Assembly (NCBI RefSeq): GCF_000430045.1
Contig: NZ_KE387023.1
Location: 620,904-684,903, forward strand
Direction of reading: 5' to 3'
Source: Calidithermus chliarophilus DSM 9957
GTDB lineage: Bacteria; Deinococcota; Deinococci; Deinococcales; Thermaceae
Length of the DNA: 64,000 nucleotides
Of this stretch, positions 1 to 44,885 are shown in pieces. Each line of letters starts with the position of its first letter. Within the stretch, counting starts at the first letter, position 1. The notes below the pieces were generated by a model, which saw nothing but the letters and a program-made list of their open reading frames with translations, was not told where the DNA came from and ran no database searches. Made by a program: the position numbers and the translations under genes.

Positions 1-1967
1 GCGGCCTCGGGGTGGGGGGCGGCGACGCCGGCGCTGAGGCGCTCGAGCGCCCGCCGCCGCAGCCCCTCGGCCACCGCCAGCGCCTGGGACAGGCTCTCCT
101 GGGCGTCCTTGGGCACGCTGTGCACCCCCGAGCCCGGCAGGACGTCGTGGAACTGGCCCAGCAGCAGCGCCTTCCAGGCCCCCTCGAGCGCCTCCCACTC
201 CTCGCCCGCTCCGCCCAGCCCGGCCCGCTCCGCCAGCACCAGCGCCGCCTCGGCCTCGACCAAGGCGTGCTCGAGCCGCCGGTTGAGCCGCTTGACCTCG
301 GCCTGGGTGGTGTAGGTGGCCCGGTGCAGCTCGAGGTACATCTCCCCCACCCACACAGGCAGGGCCGAGGGCGGTGGGGCGTCGATGGTCGATGGTCGAT
401 GGTCGATAGCCAAGGGCCTTTGCTGCTTCCCGCCCTCCTGGCGTTCGGCGTTCGGCGTTCGGCGTTCGACGGCTTCGTAGAAGCCCTCCACCCGCCCGAT
501 CTCGGCCCTGGGCAGCCCCGGAAAGGCGCGGTAGCGGGCGTAGCGCTCGAGCATCTCGGCGCTGGGGCCGCCCCCGCCGTCGCCGTAGCCGAAGGCGTAG
601 AGGGTGGCGGGGTGGTAGCGCTTGCCCTTGAAGTTGTGCCAGGTGCCCGCGAGGTCCTTGGCCTCGAGCCGCCCGTTGTAGCTCTCGTTGGGGTTCCAGA
701 AGCCGTGGGCCAGCACCCGCGTGCCGTCGAGGCCCTCCCACTGCCATAGGTCGTGGGGGAAGGCGTTGGTCTCGTTCCAATTGAGCTTGGTGGTGAAGAA
801 GTAGGGCAGCCCGCCCTGGCTCAGGACCTGCGGCAGGTTGGCGGCGAAGCCGAAGGTGTCGGGCAGCCAGGCCACCGAGGCCCGCCGCCCGAACTTCTGC
901 TGGAAGTAGCCCTGCCCGTAGAGGAGCTGCCGCGCCCAGGACTCGCCCGAGAGCAAATTGCCGTCGGGCTCGACCCACGTCCCGCCCACCAGCTCCCAGC
1001 GGCCCTCCTGCACCCGCTTCCTGACCTCTTCGAACAGCTCGGGGTCGTCGGCCTCGAGCCAGGCGTAGGCCTGGGCGCTGGACTGGTTGAAGCACAGCTC
1101 GGGGTAGCGCTCCATCAGGTGCAGCACGGTGGCGAAGGTGCGCCGGACCTTGCGCCGGGTCTCGGCTACCGGCCACAGCCAGGCCAGGTCGATGTGGGCG
1201 TGGCCACTCATGAGCAGGCGGCCCGCCGATGGGTAGCGTTCCCGGATGGCCTCGAGCCGACGCGCGAGGTGGGCCCGCGCCGCCTCCAGGCTGGCGCGGT
1301 GCTCCGGGCCCAGCGCCAGGCCGGGGCCGTCGAACTTCCACTCCTCCCACAGCTGCGCGGTCATCCCCGACCAGCTCGAGCGCTCGAGCTGCTCGAGGTA
1401 GGCCTGGGCCGGGCCGCGCGGCAGCCGGACGAGGGCGAAGGTCTCGGAAAGGGCGTCGAGCAGGAGCTGGGCCACGTCGGGCTGGACCTGCTGGGCCGCG
1501 TCCAGGGCGCAGGCTAAGTCGGTGTGCAGCGCCCGCACCTGGAGGTCGGGGAGGAAGAGCCGGGCCTCCTCGAGCCGGGGGTGGGGCACCGGGCTGCCGA
1601 AGAGGCCCCTGGGCACCGCCTCGACCTCCAGCGCCACCACCTCGGCGCCCCTAGCGGCCTCGAGCAGCGGGTACTCGCGGTGGAAGGGGTTGAGCCCGCC
1701 CAGGGCCTTGCCGTCGAGGGTCAGGAGTCCCTCCCCGCCCACGTTCAGCCGCACCCACACCGGCTTGCCGGCCCAGGCGCTGGGCACGTGGCCGCTGAAG
1801 ATCATCTCGGCGGGGAAGGCCCGGCTGGGCCACTCCTGCCCCACCTCCAGCGGCAGCCAGTCGGTGTTGGGGGCGCGGAACTCGCACTCCAGCGGGAAGG
1901 TCTCGAGGTCGCTCCAGGCCGATAGCTCCTGCAGCCGTGCCCGCAGCCGTTCAAACTCCTGCTTCAT
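1..1967 (-). CDS. Alpha-mannosidase, GH38 family (3' end beyond the window)
   Basis: I read this gene by hand from ATG at 1967, preceded by GGGGAAGGAAG. About 655 codons are visible and the C-terminus lies past base 1. It should hydrolyse terminal alpha-mannose from oligosaccharides. The GH38 zinc motif HAHIDLAWLWP is near residue 255, and WLPDTFGFA near residue 362 carries the expected nucleophilic Asp. The N-terminus overlaps the end of the DUF885 gene by 17 bp, so translation is probably coupled. No signal peptide is visible, which suggests cytoplasmic trimming of imported sugars. Oddity: residues about 500-528 (bases 382-468) are a translated 7-bp repeat array of the kind otherwise found between genes. 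It sits just before the conserved LPVWVGEMYLELH segment and keeps the frame. Family assignment is firm; the natural substrate is inferred. Confidence 0.93.
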   Translation of the reverse strand, partial: MKQEFERLRARLQELSAWSDLETFPLECEFRAPNTDWLPLEVGQEWPSRAFPAEMIFSGHVPSAWAGKPVWVRLNVGGEGLLTLDGKALGGLNPFHREYPLLEAARGAEVVALEVEAVPRGLFGSPVPHPRLEEARLFLPDLQVRALHTDLACALDAAQQVQPDVAQLLLDALSETFALVRLPRGPAQAYLEQLERSSWSGMTAQLWEEWKFDGPGLALGPEHRASLEAARAHLARRLEAIRERYPSAGRLLMSGHAHIDLAWLWPVAETRRKVRRTFATVLHLMERYPELCFNQSSAQAYAWLEADDPELFEEVRKRVQEGRWELVGGTWVEPDGNLLSGESWARQLLYGQGYFQQKFGRRASVAWLPDTFGFAANLPQVLSQGGLPYFFTTKLNWNETNAFPHDLWQWEGLDGTRVLAHGFWNPNESYNGRLEAKDLAGTWHNFKGKRYHPATLYAFGYGDGGGGPSAEMLERYARYRAFPGLPRAEIGRVEGFYEAVERRTPNAERQEGGKQQRPLAIDHRPSTIDAPPPSALPVWVGEMYLELHRATYTTQAEVKRLNRRLEHALVEAEAALVLAERAGLGGAGEEWEALEGAWKALLLGQFHDVLPGSGVHSVPKDAQESLSQALAVAEGLRRRALERLSAGVAAPHPEA
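382..468. repeat. Heptamer tandem arrays inside the GH38 coding sequence
   Basis: Two blocks of 7-bp units lie within the reading frame: TCGATGG x3 plus TCGATAG (382-409), and GCGTTCG x4 (441-468). A 31-bp non-repetitive spacer separates them. The stretch totals 87 bp, exactly 29 codons, so the frame is kept although each unit is not a multiple of three. The same units occur in many intergenic arrays of this window. Confidence 0.9.
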
Positions 1968-3324
1968 AGTCTTCCTTCCCCTCGATCCAGGCCCGCACCA
2001 TGCCGGGCGTGACGGGCTCCTCGAGCAGGCGGCGGAACCAGGCCTCGGCGTACGGCGGCTCCGCCGCCGTCCCAGAGGGAATCTGCCTACTGGCGTACGG
2101 ACGATTGTCCGTCCCGGAGGGAATCTGCCCGCTGGCGTACGGACGATTGTCCGTCCCGGAGGGAATCTGCCCGCTGGCGTACGGACCGCGGTCCGTCCCG
2201 GAGGGAATCTGCCCCCGCACCCGGAACAGCTCGTCCAGCAGGTCGCCCCCGGCGGTGTAGGTGAAGATGTAGGAGCGCCAGGTGGGGTTGGTGATGAACT
2301 CGAGGCTCTTGCGGGCGCGCTCGGGCGTGGCGAGGGCGTAGCGCCGGAGGTAGCCCAGCACCTCGGCCTCGGGGCGCTTCTCCTCGTGCAGCAGCAGCGC
2401 CGCGTTGCCCGAGACGTGCTTGAGGGTGCGCTGCTGCCGCACCGCCGCCTGCATGGCCTCGACCTCGGCACGGCCCACGCCCAGGCCCAGGTACCCGGCG
2501 AGCTCGAGCAGCCACTGTGCCTCCTCGGCCTCCGGGAGCACCATCGCGCGGGCCTTGACCGCGATCCCCTCGGAGATCACGCACTCGGGGGAGTTGATGA
2601 GCAGGATCGAGGCCTCGGCGTGGCCCTGCTCGCGGTACAGGCGCAGCTCCTTGAGCACGTGCTCGGTGTGGTGGCCGGGGTAGCCCTCGTGGGCCATGGT
2701 GTCGGGGAGGGAATAGAGGTGGGTGGGGAGGTCGGTGTTGAGGTCGATGCGCGAGCGGTAGCCGCCCAGGTACCAGTTGTAGGCCCCCCAGGGCTGCTCC
2801 CTGACCAGCTCCACCGTGAACGACTCCTCCCTCGGCAGCCCGTAGCGCCCGCGCACCCGCTCGCCCAGGCGCTCGAGCAAAATCCCCAGCACCTCCCCCA
2901 CCCGCTCACGCGGCACCACGAAGCGCTGTCGGAAGGCCTCCAGGCGCTCGGGAACCGGCCCCTGGCCCGGCAGCACGTCCTCCAGGCCGGCGATGGCCTC
3001 CTCGAAGCGGGACTCGGGCACCGCCTCGGCCTCCACGCCGTACAGCCGCCGCACCTCCTCGCGGTAGGGCAGCGCCTCGCCCTGCAACAGCGCCAGGGTG
3101 GTCTGCATGGCCGCGACCTGCGCCTTTAGCCAGGCGCGGCGCGGTCCGGGCCCCAGGCCCTCCACCGCCCGGGCCAGCTCCTCGGCCTGCCGCGCCAGCT
3201 CCGCCAGCGGCAGCATGGCCTCGGGCTTCCAGTCCTCGGGGCCGAAATAGGCGTCGATGTAGCCCGGGAAGTGCTGCTCGATGCCGTGCGCCAGTTCGAT
3301 GTAGTGCCGTGCCACGTCGGTCAT
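1951..3324 (-). CDS. DUF885 family metallopeptidase-like protein
   Basis: A 457-residue protein of the DUF885 family. The family hallmark HEGYPGHH lies about two-fifths along, followed by SEGIAVKA, which fits a zinc-peptidase-like active site (HExxxHH plus a downstream Glu). The substrate is unknown; some DUF885 members are annotated as carboxypeptidase-like. There is no signal peptide, so a cytoplasmic role is likely. It overlaps the ROK kinase upstream (ATGA, 3321-3324) and the GH38 gene downstream, so it belongs to the sugar operon. Its C-terminal part contains four copies of a 14-residue unit such as QIPSGTDNRPYASG (bases about 2050-2218). The final 30 or so residues after this insert (AWFRRLLEEPVTPGMV) look like normal family sequence. 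The family call is strong; the function is not known. Confidence 0.88.
   Translation of the reverse strand: MTDVARHYIELAHGIEQHFPGYIDAYFGPEDWKPEAMLPLAELARQAEELARAVEGLGPGPRRAWLKAQVAAMQTTLALLQGEALPYREEVRRLYGVEAEAVPESRFEEAIAGLEDVLPGQGPVPERLEAFRQRFVVPRERVGEVLGILLERLGERVRGRYGLPREESFTVELVREQPWGAYNWYLGGYRSRIDLNTDLPTHLYSLPDTMAHEGYPGHHTEHVLKELRLYREQGHAEASILLINSPECVISEGIAVKARAMVLPEAEEAQWLLELAGYLGLGVGRAEVEAMQAAVRQQRTLKHVSGNAALLLHEEKRPEAEVLGYLRRYALATPERARKSLEFITNPTWRSYIFTYTAGGDLLDELFRVRGQIPSGTDRGPYASGQIPSGTDNRPYASGQIPSGTDNRPYASRQIPSGTAAEPPYAEAWFRRLLEEPVTPGMVRAWIEGKEDYEAGV
2050..2218. repeat. 42-bp tandem repeat with internal palindrome, in frame in the DUF885 gene
   Basis: About four units of 42 bp occur in tandem. 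Each holds ACGGAC-GATT-GTCCGT or a variant of it (a 6-bp stem with a 4-base loop) followed by CCCGGAGGGAATCTGCC. The unit length equals 14 codons, so copy-number changes would keep the frame. The outer copies are more diverged than the two central ones, which suggests recent amplification. Confidence 0.88.
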
Positions 3325-4163: not shown

Positions 4164-4234
4164 AGGCTGGAGTCCTCGTGCTTCAGGGGGCTGGAGTCCT
4201 TGCGCTTCATGACGCTGAAGTCCTCGTGCTTCAT
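4160..4234 (-). CDS. 24-codon mini-ORF made of a 24-bp tandem repeat
   Basis: The ATG at 4234 overlaps the TGA of the DUF4127 gene and reads 24 codons to a TGA overlapping the ROK ATG at 4163. The predicted peptide is MKHEDFSVMKRKDSSP followed by LKHEDSSL. It is encoded by three 24-bp (8-codon) repeats at 4164-4235. The exact stop/start overlap at both ends suggests it may act as a coupling cistron. It could equally be a repeat element whose translation has no function. I know of no homologue. Confidence 0.4.
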   Translation of the reverse strand: MKHEDFSVMKRKDSSPLKHEDSSL

Positions 4235-4235
4235 G
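4164..4235. repeat. Three 24-bp tandem repeats between DUF4127 and ROK genes
   Basis: Units at 4164-4187, 4188-4211 and 4212-4235 share the core CTGGAGTCCTCGTGCTTCA with few mismatches. On the minus strand the array supplies the DUF4127 stop codon and runs up to the ROK start codon. Confidence 0.9.
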
Positions 4236-8149: not shown

Positions 8150-8316
8150 AGGCCGATAGCCGATAGCCGATAGCCAAGGGCTGCCGAACGCCGGACGCTA
8201 AACGCCAAACGCCCAGAACCACGGTCGAACGGCGTCTCGCGTCCCGCGTCTGGCGTCTGGCGTTTTGCGGCTTGCGTTCGGCGTTGGGCGTTCGGCGTTG
8301 GGCGTTCGGCGTTCAC
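8150..8316. repeat. Heptamer array between the two set-B permease genes
   Basis: The gap is built of CGATAGC units, then AACGCCGG/CTAAACGCC-type units, then GCGTCTG, GCGTTTT, GCGTTCG and GCGTTGG units. On the minus strand the array starts inside the stop codon of the upstream permease (TGAACGCC) and ends shortly before the ribosome binding site of the next gene. It appears to have expanded inside an operon. Confidence 0.85.
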
Positions 8317-20698: not shown

Positions 20699-20719
20699 AG
20701 GGCCATTCACGAGGTCTTA

Positions 20720-24991: not shown

Positions 24992-25396
24992 CCGGAAGCG
25001 GTCAGCGAACGGCTGGTGGCCCGTGGTTCGTCGAGGATCGAGGGTCGAGGGCCAAAGCGTCCCGCGACTTGCGTTCGGCGTTCGACGTTCGACGTTTTGC
25101 GTACGACGTACGACGTAATACCGGATTCAAAAAGATAATCATCCGATCCGAAGAGCCCCGGAGGCTATCTTTTTGAATCCTAGAGCACACCCCTCCCTGA
25201 CGGTCGGCGAAGCAAGCGTATCCCTTCCAAGGGGCGCTATCGCCCTCCGCCACGCGGATAACTTCGGTCGGGTTAGTTCGCCGCCATCTGGCGCCGAACT
25301 AACCGAATCTGGTATAAGACGTACGACCGGCGTCTTGCATCTCGCGTTCGGCGTAGGACGTACGACGTACGACCCGCGCCCAACGTCCTCCACCAC
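24992..25396. repeat. Intergenic heptamer array interrupted by a MITE-like element
   Basis: This 405-bp gap has no gene. It begins at the nadE stop with GGAAGCGGTCAGCG, then TCGAGGA/TCGAGGG units, then GCGTTCG, ACGTTCG, ACGTTTT, GCGTACG and ACGTACG units up to 25116. A MITE-like element (25119-25314) has landed inside the ACGTACG run; the array resumes to its right with GACGTACGACC and ends near 25390. Confidence 0.85.
25119..25314. mobile_element. MITE-like element, copy 2 (196 bp)
   Basis: The ends TACCGGATTC and GAATCTGGTA are identical to copy 1, here flanked by the direct repeat TAA (25116-25118 and 25315-25317). The left hairpin arms (GGATTCAAAAAGATA and complement) and right arms (GGTTAGTTCG and complement) are kept, but the centre is about 70 bp longer than in copy 1. 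There is no ORF. It is nested in a heptamer array, so it is younger than the array. Confidence 0.87.
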
Positions 25397-37211: not shown

Positions 37212-37466
37212 GCCCGGCAGCGGTCAGCTATCAGCCGTCAGCCCTCAGCTCGTGGCCTGTGGCGTGTGGGAATATCCCCCCTGGCCCCCCTTGTTAAGGG
37301 GGGTAAAGAAAAGGCGTTTTGCGTTTTGCGTTTTGCGTTTGGCGTTTGGCGTTTGGCGTCTTGCGTACGACGTAGGACGTACGACGTACGACCCGCGCCC
37401 GGCTATCGGCTATCAGCTATGGGCTATCAACGTCGGGCGGTCGGCTACCGACCCCCGACCCCCGCC
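37212..37466. repeat. Composite repeat region between convergent EAL and aldo-keto reductase genes
   Basis: GCGGTCA/GCTATCA/GCCGTCA/GCCCTCA units, then GGCCTGT/GGCGTGT units, a hairpin CCCCCCTT-GTT-AAGGGGGG (37285-37303), then eleven clean 7-bp units from 37314 (GCGTTTT x3, GCGTTTG x3, GCGTCTT, GCGTACG, ACGTAGG, ACGTACG x2), then GGCTATC-type units. This is the clearest example of the 7-bp period in the window. Confidence 0.92.
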
Positions 37467-37467
37467 A

Positions 37468-38439
37468 TCAATCCGACCAATGCGCCGGCCTCCGCACCCA
37501 GCGGTGCTTGCGCAGGCGGGCCATGAGGTCTTCGGGCAGGGGCTCGAGCCCGCTCACGGCGGCGTTGGCCTCTACGTGGCGCACGCGGCGCATGCCGGGG
37601 ATCACGGTGGAGACGTCGGGGTTTTGCAGGATGAAGCGCAGGGCCAGCTCGGGGAGGGTCATGCCCTCGGGGAGGTCGGCCTTGAGGCGCTCGACGCGCT
37701 CTAGGGTGGGGATGAGGTTCTCCTTGCTGAAGTAGCGGTTGCGCCAGTCGCCCTCGGGGAAGGTGGTGTCGGGGGTGAGGGTGCCGGTGAGGGAGCCCTC
37801 GTCGAAGGGCACGCGGGCGATGACGGCGACGCCCAGCTCGCGGCAGCGCGGGAAGAGCTCGTCCTCGGGGTTCTGGTCGAAGAGGTTGTAGATGACCTGT
37901 ACCGCGTCGATGAGGCCGGTCTCGAGCGCCAGCAGGGCGTTCTCGGGCTCCCAGCGGTTGATGCTGATGCCCCAGGCCTTCACTAAGCCCTCCTCCTTGA
38001 GCTTCTCCACCTCACGCTGCCAGCGCGCGTCGCGGGCCCAGTTGTCGTGCCAGACGTGGAACTGCATGAGGTCGAGGGAGGGCAGGCCCAGGTTTTGCAG
38101 GCTCCACTCGGTGTAGCGGCGGATGTGGTCGGGGGGGTAGGTCTCCTCGAGCGGGTACTCGGCCCGGGCGGGCCACTTGAAGTTCTTGGCGGGGATCTTG
38201 CTGGCGGTCCAGAGCTTCTTGCCGGGGTTGGCCCGCACCAGCTCGCCCAGCATCCGCTCACTCCTGCCGTCGCCGTACGCCCAGGCGGTGTCGAAGAAGT
38301 TTATGCCCAGGTCCACGGCGCGCTGCAACGCCTGGCGCACCTCCGCCTCGTCCGAGCCCGTCCAGCCCGCCAAGCCCCACATGCCGTAGCCGATCTCCGA
38401 GACCGGCCAGCCCAGTCGTCCAAAGGTCCGGTGGCGCAT
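37468..38439 (-). CDS. Aldo/keto reductase
   Basis: A 323-residue AKR barrel using NADPH. The tetrad Asp-Tyr-Lys-His is visible: FFDTAWAYGDGRSE, WTASKI, MQFHVWHDN. The C-terminal cofactor site IPGMRRVRHVEANAAV is present. It resembles YghZ/YajO-type AKRs that reduce aldehydes or sugars; the natural substrate is unknown. ATG 38439 has CACAAT six bases upstream and no Shine-Dalgarno, so it may be leaderless. The stop TGA borders a repeat array. Confidence 0.9.
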   Translation of the reverse strand: MRHRTFGRLGWPVSEIGYGMWGLAGWTGSDEAEVRQALQRAVDLGINFFDTAWAYGDGRSERMLGELVRANPGKKLWTASKIPAKNFKWPARAEYPLEETYPPDHIRRYTEWSLQNLGLPSLDLMQFHVWHDNWARDARWQREVEKLKEEGLVKAWGISINRWEPENALLALETGLIDAVQVIYNLFDQNPEDELFPRCRELGVAVIARVPFDEGSLTGTLTPDTTFPEGDWRNRYFSKENLIPTLERVERLKADLPEGMTLPELALRFILQNPDVSTVIPGMRRVRHVEANAAVSGLEPLPEDLMARLRKHRWVRRPAHWSD

Positions 38440-42766: not shown

Positions 42767-44647
<1,881 letters not shown>

Positions 44648-44659
44648 TGGGTGGGACGC

Positions 44660-44885
44660 CGAGCGCTAATAGCCGATAGCTGATAGCCAGACGCCGGACG
44701 CAGGGTGTACGACCCGCGTCCGGCGTCGTACGTCTTACGTCGTACGTCGTACGCCAAACGCGAGACGCAAGACGCCTTGTCACCCCCCTTAGCAAGGCTA
44801 GGGGGATATTCCCACACGCCACGGGCCACGGGCCTTTGCTGACGGCTGAAAGCTGACCGCTGACCGCTTCCCTCACACCGTCTTG
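44660..44885. repeat. Composite repeat region between convergent ftsH and REC-TrxR genes
   Basis: AATAGCC/GATAGCT/GATAGCC units, GTACGTC/TTACGTC/GTACGTC units, GAGACGCAAGACGCC, a decayed hairpin CCCCCCTTAGCAAGG (44783 onward), then CACGGGCC/CACGGGCC, then GACGGCT/GAAAGCT/GACCGCT units that touch the stop of the next gene. Confidence 0.85.

Follow-up and report, generated by a model that had tools for sequence, protein, structure and literature searches.

Tandemly repeated heptanucleotides have been described in several bacterial groups, among them TAACTGA in Beggiatoaceae and the STRR sequences of cyanobacteria (PMC4679880) and the GGGAATC/GGGGATT heptamers of Xanthomonas and Nostoc (PMC4692102). 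Copies of TAACTGA that fall within ORFs are mostly located at protein ends, with one exception (PMC4679880). Repeats that are translated inside proteins are known from the Rickettsia palindromic elements (RPEs), which are approximately 150 bp long and encode a conserved peptide; of the copies initially reported in R. conorii, almost half lie in ORFs (PMC10969869). REPs have been counted in Calidithermus roseus (PMC12306157), in a passage that makes no mention of heptamers.

We followed up a sequence-only reading of a 64,000-bp stretch of DNA (C3:620904-684903 of a 4.69-Mb genome; hereafter, the window), according to which two blocks of 7-bp units that otherwise occur between genes sit in frame within a GH38 alpha-mannosidase gene. 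That observation was confirmed: the arrays are perfect, the ORF is intact, and intergenic regions are rich in the same units. Similar to STRR and other bacterial heptanucleotide repeats, the sequences analysed here are 7-bp units repeated in tandem at numerous locations (446 arrays in 2.2 Mb), most of them between genes and few in ORFs. In contrast to the STRR, TAACTGA and GGGAATC repeats, however, many heptamers here are fixed-order blocks of one element with hairpins, and the coding copy lies within the protein, where it separates two conserved enzyme domains. The comparison with REP- and MITE-type repeats is similarly mixed: many dispersed intergenic copies, a preference for 3′ gene ends and hairpins in the full composite element are shared, but the main body is built of tandem heptamer blocks that differ in copy number, and no terminal inverted repeats or target duplications were recognised.

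Results

The insert and its gene

The GH38 ORF is encoded on the minus strand, begins with an ATG at window position 1967 and runs past the window to C3:619739, comprising 1043 codons (33 residues masked) without a stop. Its membership in GH38 follows from the presence of both the N-terminal catalytic domain (PF01074) and the middle domain (PF09261; Table 1). The motifs GHAHID, LPDTFGF and QFHDVLPGS are invariant or conserved in the homologue alignment (A1). LPDTFGF is the nucleophile motif, and the GH38 motifs have a catalytic role; judged from the same alignment, the metal-site and nucleophile motifs of the window protein are all kept.

The insert is placed between the two domains, immediately before the conserved LPVWVGEMYLELH, and its 28 + 31 + 28 = 87 bp add exactly the 29 codons that the sequence-only reading had counted. 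Read on the plus strand, it consists of a GGTCGAT (Y) block, ATAGCCAAGG, a spacer (GCCTTTGCTGCTTCCCGCCC) and a GGCGTTC (F) block. Exact period-7 runs as large as those of the insert did not occur in a Markov shuffle of the window. Approximately 24 bp of the spacer had no match among the intergenic copies seen, and no target-site duplication at the insert was recognised by eye.

The codon score of the insert was −0.39 per codon versus +0.35 for the GH38 gene, that is, its codon use resembles that of non-coding DNA. It is open in all three sense frames, and because of this any in-frame insert length survives translation. The RNA fold of 101 nt at the insert showed no excess structure compared with shuffles (z = 0.05), and no Rfam match was found near the insert. 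An AlphaFold model of the window protein, run with four relatives, was too poor for use (mean pLDDT 51).

Table 1. Positions of the GH38 gene, its domains, the parts of the insert and three intergenic heptamer loci in the window.
Feature	Position	Strand	Details
GH38 alpha-mannosidase gene, N-terminal 655 codons	1..1967	-	Pfam Glyco_hydro_38N 2.9e-85, Alpha-mann_mid 1.7e-21; full ORF without stop
GH38 catalytic domain, residues 253-506, with GHAHIDLAWLWP and LPDTFGF	450..1211	-	Pfam PF01074 (Glyco_hydro_38N); both motifs invariant in alignment A1
Alpha-mannosidase middle domain, residues 546-644, directly after the insert	36..332	-	Pfam PF09261 (Alpha-mann_mid)
In-frame insert, 87 bp, residues ~501-529 (RRTPNAERQEGGKQQRPLAIDHRPSTIDA)	382..468	-	Missing from nearly all homologues; codon score −0.39 per codon (gene, +0.35); open in all three sense frames
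Heptamer block Y, GTCGATG x3.9 (coding strand CATCGAC)	381..407	+	Period 7, 100% match (Tandem Repeats Finder); same family as the genome-wide ATCGACC/GGTCGAT block
Spacer, starts AGCCAAGG	408..439	+	Resembles the Y/t-to-F junction of intergenic copies, e.g. GATAGCCAAGG at C3:942750; remainder unique
Heptamer block F, GGCGTTC x4.1 (coding strand GAACGCC)	440..468	+	Period 7, 100% match (Tandem Repeats Finder); the genome's commonest heptamer block
Intergenic heptamer locus: GATAGCC block, then GGCGT.. blocks	8151..8314	+	Comparison locus
Near-complete composite element: GTCAGC block, GTGGC, CCCCCCTTGTTAAGGGGGG hairpin, GCGTTTT, GACGTAC, GGCTATC and CGACCCC blocks	37218..37470	+	
Composite element, reverse orientation	44640..44880	-	

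Homologues and the variable linker

In a search of 61 genomes, the best homologues matched the window protein up to residue ~502-507 and resumed at ~532-535 in directly adjacent DNA; at the position of the insert, the alignment shows a native linker of a few residues or none. The nearest named relatives of the gene are from Meiothermus, and the source is accordingly assigned to the Thermaceae, as a bacterium of the hot-spring type. A scan of viral contigs found no further GH38 relatives. Relative to most Meiothermus homologues, the insert corresponds to a gap of exactly 29 alignment columns, and relative to others the gap is a few columns smaller, owing to differences of a few residues in the length of the native linker. 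The solved GH38 proteins (7UFR, 7UFS, 7UFT, 7UFU and Ams1, 6LZ1) share the domains and motifs that flank the insert site, but S. pombe Ams1 (6LZ1) and the bacterial 7UFS are without the segment, their linkers measuring 3-7 residues versus ~30 here. A conserved segment of equal length and composition, which would have refuted the sequence-only reading, is thus missing from nearly all homologues, both within the genus and beyond it, and from the solved proteins.

Two relatives have an insert of their own at the same linker. In a Meiothermus MAG (L031), it is a different heptamer array of three CCCCGAC units and one GAACGCC unit, and in another relative (L036), it is an unrelated G-rich insert of 29 residues without heptamers; taken together, these two sequences indicate that the GH38 linker is generally expandable. 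In a tree calculated from the GH38 core without the linker, the window gene was placed outside the clade formed by L031 and Meiothermus (UFBoot 99), and therefore the linker expanded more than once, or early with subsequent loss. A single ancestral insertion shared with L031 was suggested by the like order of a GGTCGGG-type array followed by one GGCGTTC unit, but L031 groups with Meiothermus and its genome had no match to the composite element. The arrays in L031 and the window may thus reflect either shared ancestry with later loss or an independent origin.

A directional composite element between genes

When the intergenic heptamer loci were coded by unit type, they resolved into one directional composite element or its exact reverse complement, with the block order GTCAGC (d), GTGGC (H), GC-rich hairpins, GCGTTT (F), GTACGAC (A), GGCTATC (T) and ATCGACC (y). 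Counting block pairs within 120 bp of each other, the stated order and orientation was observed for 72 of 73 d to F pairs, 66 of 69 H to F pairs, 81 of 92 A to T pairs and 106 of 110 T to y pairs. The arrays in the GH38 gene thus belong to the genome's intergenic heptamers, as the sequence-only reading had it, but these are blocks of one ordered element and not free arrays. A 30% sample of the genome contained 188 array-bearing intergenic regions.

In a minor form of the element, GGTCGAT (Y) and GATAGCC are located upstream of F on the same strand. The GH38 insert is this minor form by block order and orientation and is among the 20 Y-F pairs counted. It also has the junction GCCAAGG, which recurs in many intergenic copies, and its units match hundreds of intergenic arrays in the window and the genome.

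The composite element is present in the same genus (G001) and in another genus (G004 and G007), with traces in a few others; at the threshold used, neither the small genomes of genus g5 nor those from outside the family yielded a copy. No description of the ordered heptamer element was found in the literature searched, which is weak evidence of novelty.

Two other repeats were seen in contact with the heptamers. A MITE-like element (ATACCGGATTC...GAATCTGGTAT) at window 25118-25316 interrupts the GACGTAC block of a heptamer element, and a related start is found at 20719. A different repeat ending in GGCACAACCCCAGTGGATGATT is often located directly 5′ of a short GGCGTT-GGCTATC-ATCGACC tail (L072:6631, L121:14795, L209:19412 and others), as if a second element family shared the 3′ part of the heptamer element.

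Arrays are rare inside genes

Genes were called with a purpose-made codon-usage gene caller on sampled stretches (47% of the genome), and the resulting counts hold for intact genes, as the caller may miss genes already broken by an array. Overall, 430 of the 446 arrays were intergenic, 12 overlapped a gene end, and 4 were located inside genes. Because approximately 81% of the DNA was called coding, genes are strongly avoided by arrays. The 4 gene-internal arrays comprise one poly-A run, the two GH38 blocks and one array in a PaaB-like gene at C3:995310, leaving GH38 and PaaB as the only two genes with internal heptamer arrays, both in linkers and encoding different peptides. The view that arrays can spread into genes thus stands for these two cases, but with two genes among 446 arrays such spread is exceptional.

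All 12 gene-end arrays extend over a stop codon, and arrays prefer convergent gene pairs (61 of 118) to divergent ones (11 of 149). Tandem repeats with periods of 5, 6 or 8-12 bp accounted for only 3-34 arrays each in 1.41 Mb and were mostly in genes.

Several side observations concern repeats at or within coding regions. The arrays over stop codons supply short C-terminal tails, for example VDSR* or ADSR* (e.g. C3:1801344 and C3:363352). In the PaaB-like protein (TIGR02157; L069:15089-15643), a proline-rich heptamer-encoded linker, PPAPDPRPST, is situated between two halves. The gene next to GH38 (window 1951-3324, minus strand; no Pfam/NCBIfam match) contains a 42-bp repeat with 3.5 copies (window 2067-2214) in frame near its C-terminus, encoding RPYASGQIPSGTDN units. 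This second protein-embedded repeat is not of the heptamer kind and did not recur elsewhere in the 1.41 Mb sampled. A 24-bp tandem repeat (x2.9) at window 4166-4235 is located between, or at the start of, a ROK kinase gene and a DUF4127 gene.

Block orientation and replication

Strand bias was tested on evenly placed and held-out stretches, with dnaA (C3:754648) taken as the origin marker. Among F arrays of at least 3 units, GGCGTTT was mostly on the plus strand to the left of dnaA and on the minus strand to the right (14:5 versus 23:62, p = 3e-4, stretches chosen because of a hit excluded). The G-rich strand of the Y blocks followed the same rule (p = 1.3e-3, unselected stretches), and T (GGCTATC) and A (GTACGAC) blocks, whose units lack GC skew, showed no bias by side of dnaA. 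In the held-out stretches alone, the polarity was weaker (F, p = 0.04; Y, p = 0.16), and in the relative G007 it had the same direction without being significant (13:8 versus 4:8, p = 0.16). The orientation of whole elements showed no positional polarity, 167 of 400 shuffles reaching the observed score, and the orientation-dependent property is block length, not element direction. The GH38 blocks are located to the left of dnaA with both G-rich strands on the plus strand, the favoured orientation.

Neighbouring units are identical and units differ between loci, which points to local expansion of the arrays. Strand-biased slippage at the replication fork would give the polarity observed. We see an even chance that the heptamers form one directional composite element in which strand-biased slippage, governed by the direction of replication, lengthens the GC-skewed blocks, with the GH38 insert as a coding copy having both blocks in the favoured orientation.

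Discussion

The best explanation for the 87 bp is a partial copy of a dispersed, heptamer-built intergenic element, antisense in the GH38 gene. We consider it likely that the insert is a fragment of this element that expanded by slippage in a tolerant linker and was retained owing to its lack of stops and a length divisible by three. A fragment would have entered the GH38 linker, whereupon its two blocks would have grown and homogenised through strand slippage at the replication fork. Retention would be due to both heptamers being stop-free in all sense frames, a net length divisible by three and a linker that tolerates additions.

An origin in place, with a short native linker expanded by slippage into arrays and nothing transferred from the intergenic element, appears unlikely, although the length of the linker is variable, L036 has an unrelated expansion of 29 residues there, and the different array at the same site of L031, in a genome without the element, suggests that heptamers can arise at the linker without element transfer. 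Against it, both blocks of the window gene belong to the genome's own heptamer families and have the order, orientation and junction sequence of the intergenic subtype, an arrangement that two independent expansions would be less likely to yield. That the segment is a conserved part of GH38 and merely looks repetitive has practically no probability; its position beside a conserved motif is the only point in favour, and the alignments refute it, the segment being missing in nearly all homologues and in the solved structures.

Two further readings would give the insert a role. A unit of 7 bp is not divisible by three, and a pair of perfect arrays of this unit within an ORF is a frame-shifting repeat as in phase-variable loci, so that the gain or loss of one unit would shift the frame and turn the mannosidase on or off; such a contingency switch is nevertheless very improbable, given that only a single allele is known, genes are depleted of arrays, not enriched in them, the gene is metabolic and does not encode a surface antigen, and the alternative frames stay open far downstream in GC-rich DNA, which would make for an untidy switch. 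Less probable still is a functional segment for binding, oligomerisation or regulation that was selected in this lineage: the 29 residues are in frame and stop-free in a gene with conserved catalytic motifs, but their sequence is that of non-coding repeats with non-coding-like codon use, and relatives either lack the segment or have an insert of unrelated sequence. Compared with these readings, we favour entry of an element fragment, with the added residues probably serving as a flexible linker that has no function of its own and the insert being a rare, probably neutral passenger. In our view it contributes nothing to the enzyme: the codon use is unlike that of the gene, the sense frames are open and the linker is variable in the family.

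Like an RPE, the insert is an intergenic repeat that is also found within the reading frame of a conserved metabolic gene, whose product it extends by a short peptide. Unlike an RPE, it has no excess fold and no conserved peptide, and coding copies make up less than 1% of the arrays. The resemblance to Rickettsia that the sequence-only reading had drawn therefore holds as an analogy only, also in view of the missing series of in-frame copies; the insert behaves as a protein-embedded repeat without being an RPE.

The locus is a clean case of a non-coding repeat that is read in frame within the interior of an enzyme. Hundreds of copies of its source element persist in the genome, and because the source is still there, the conditions for survival in a gene (stop-free units, a length divisible by three and a tolerant linker) can be read directly. 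Orientation-dependent block lengths would make the old slippage explanation for the excess of heptamers in bacteria testable within one genome. If this holds true, the expansion of repeats on the leading and lagging strands is naturally recorded in the hundreds of copies.
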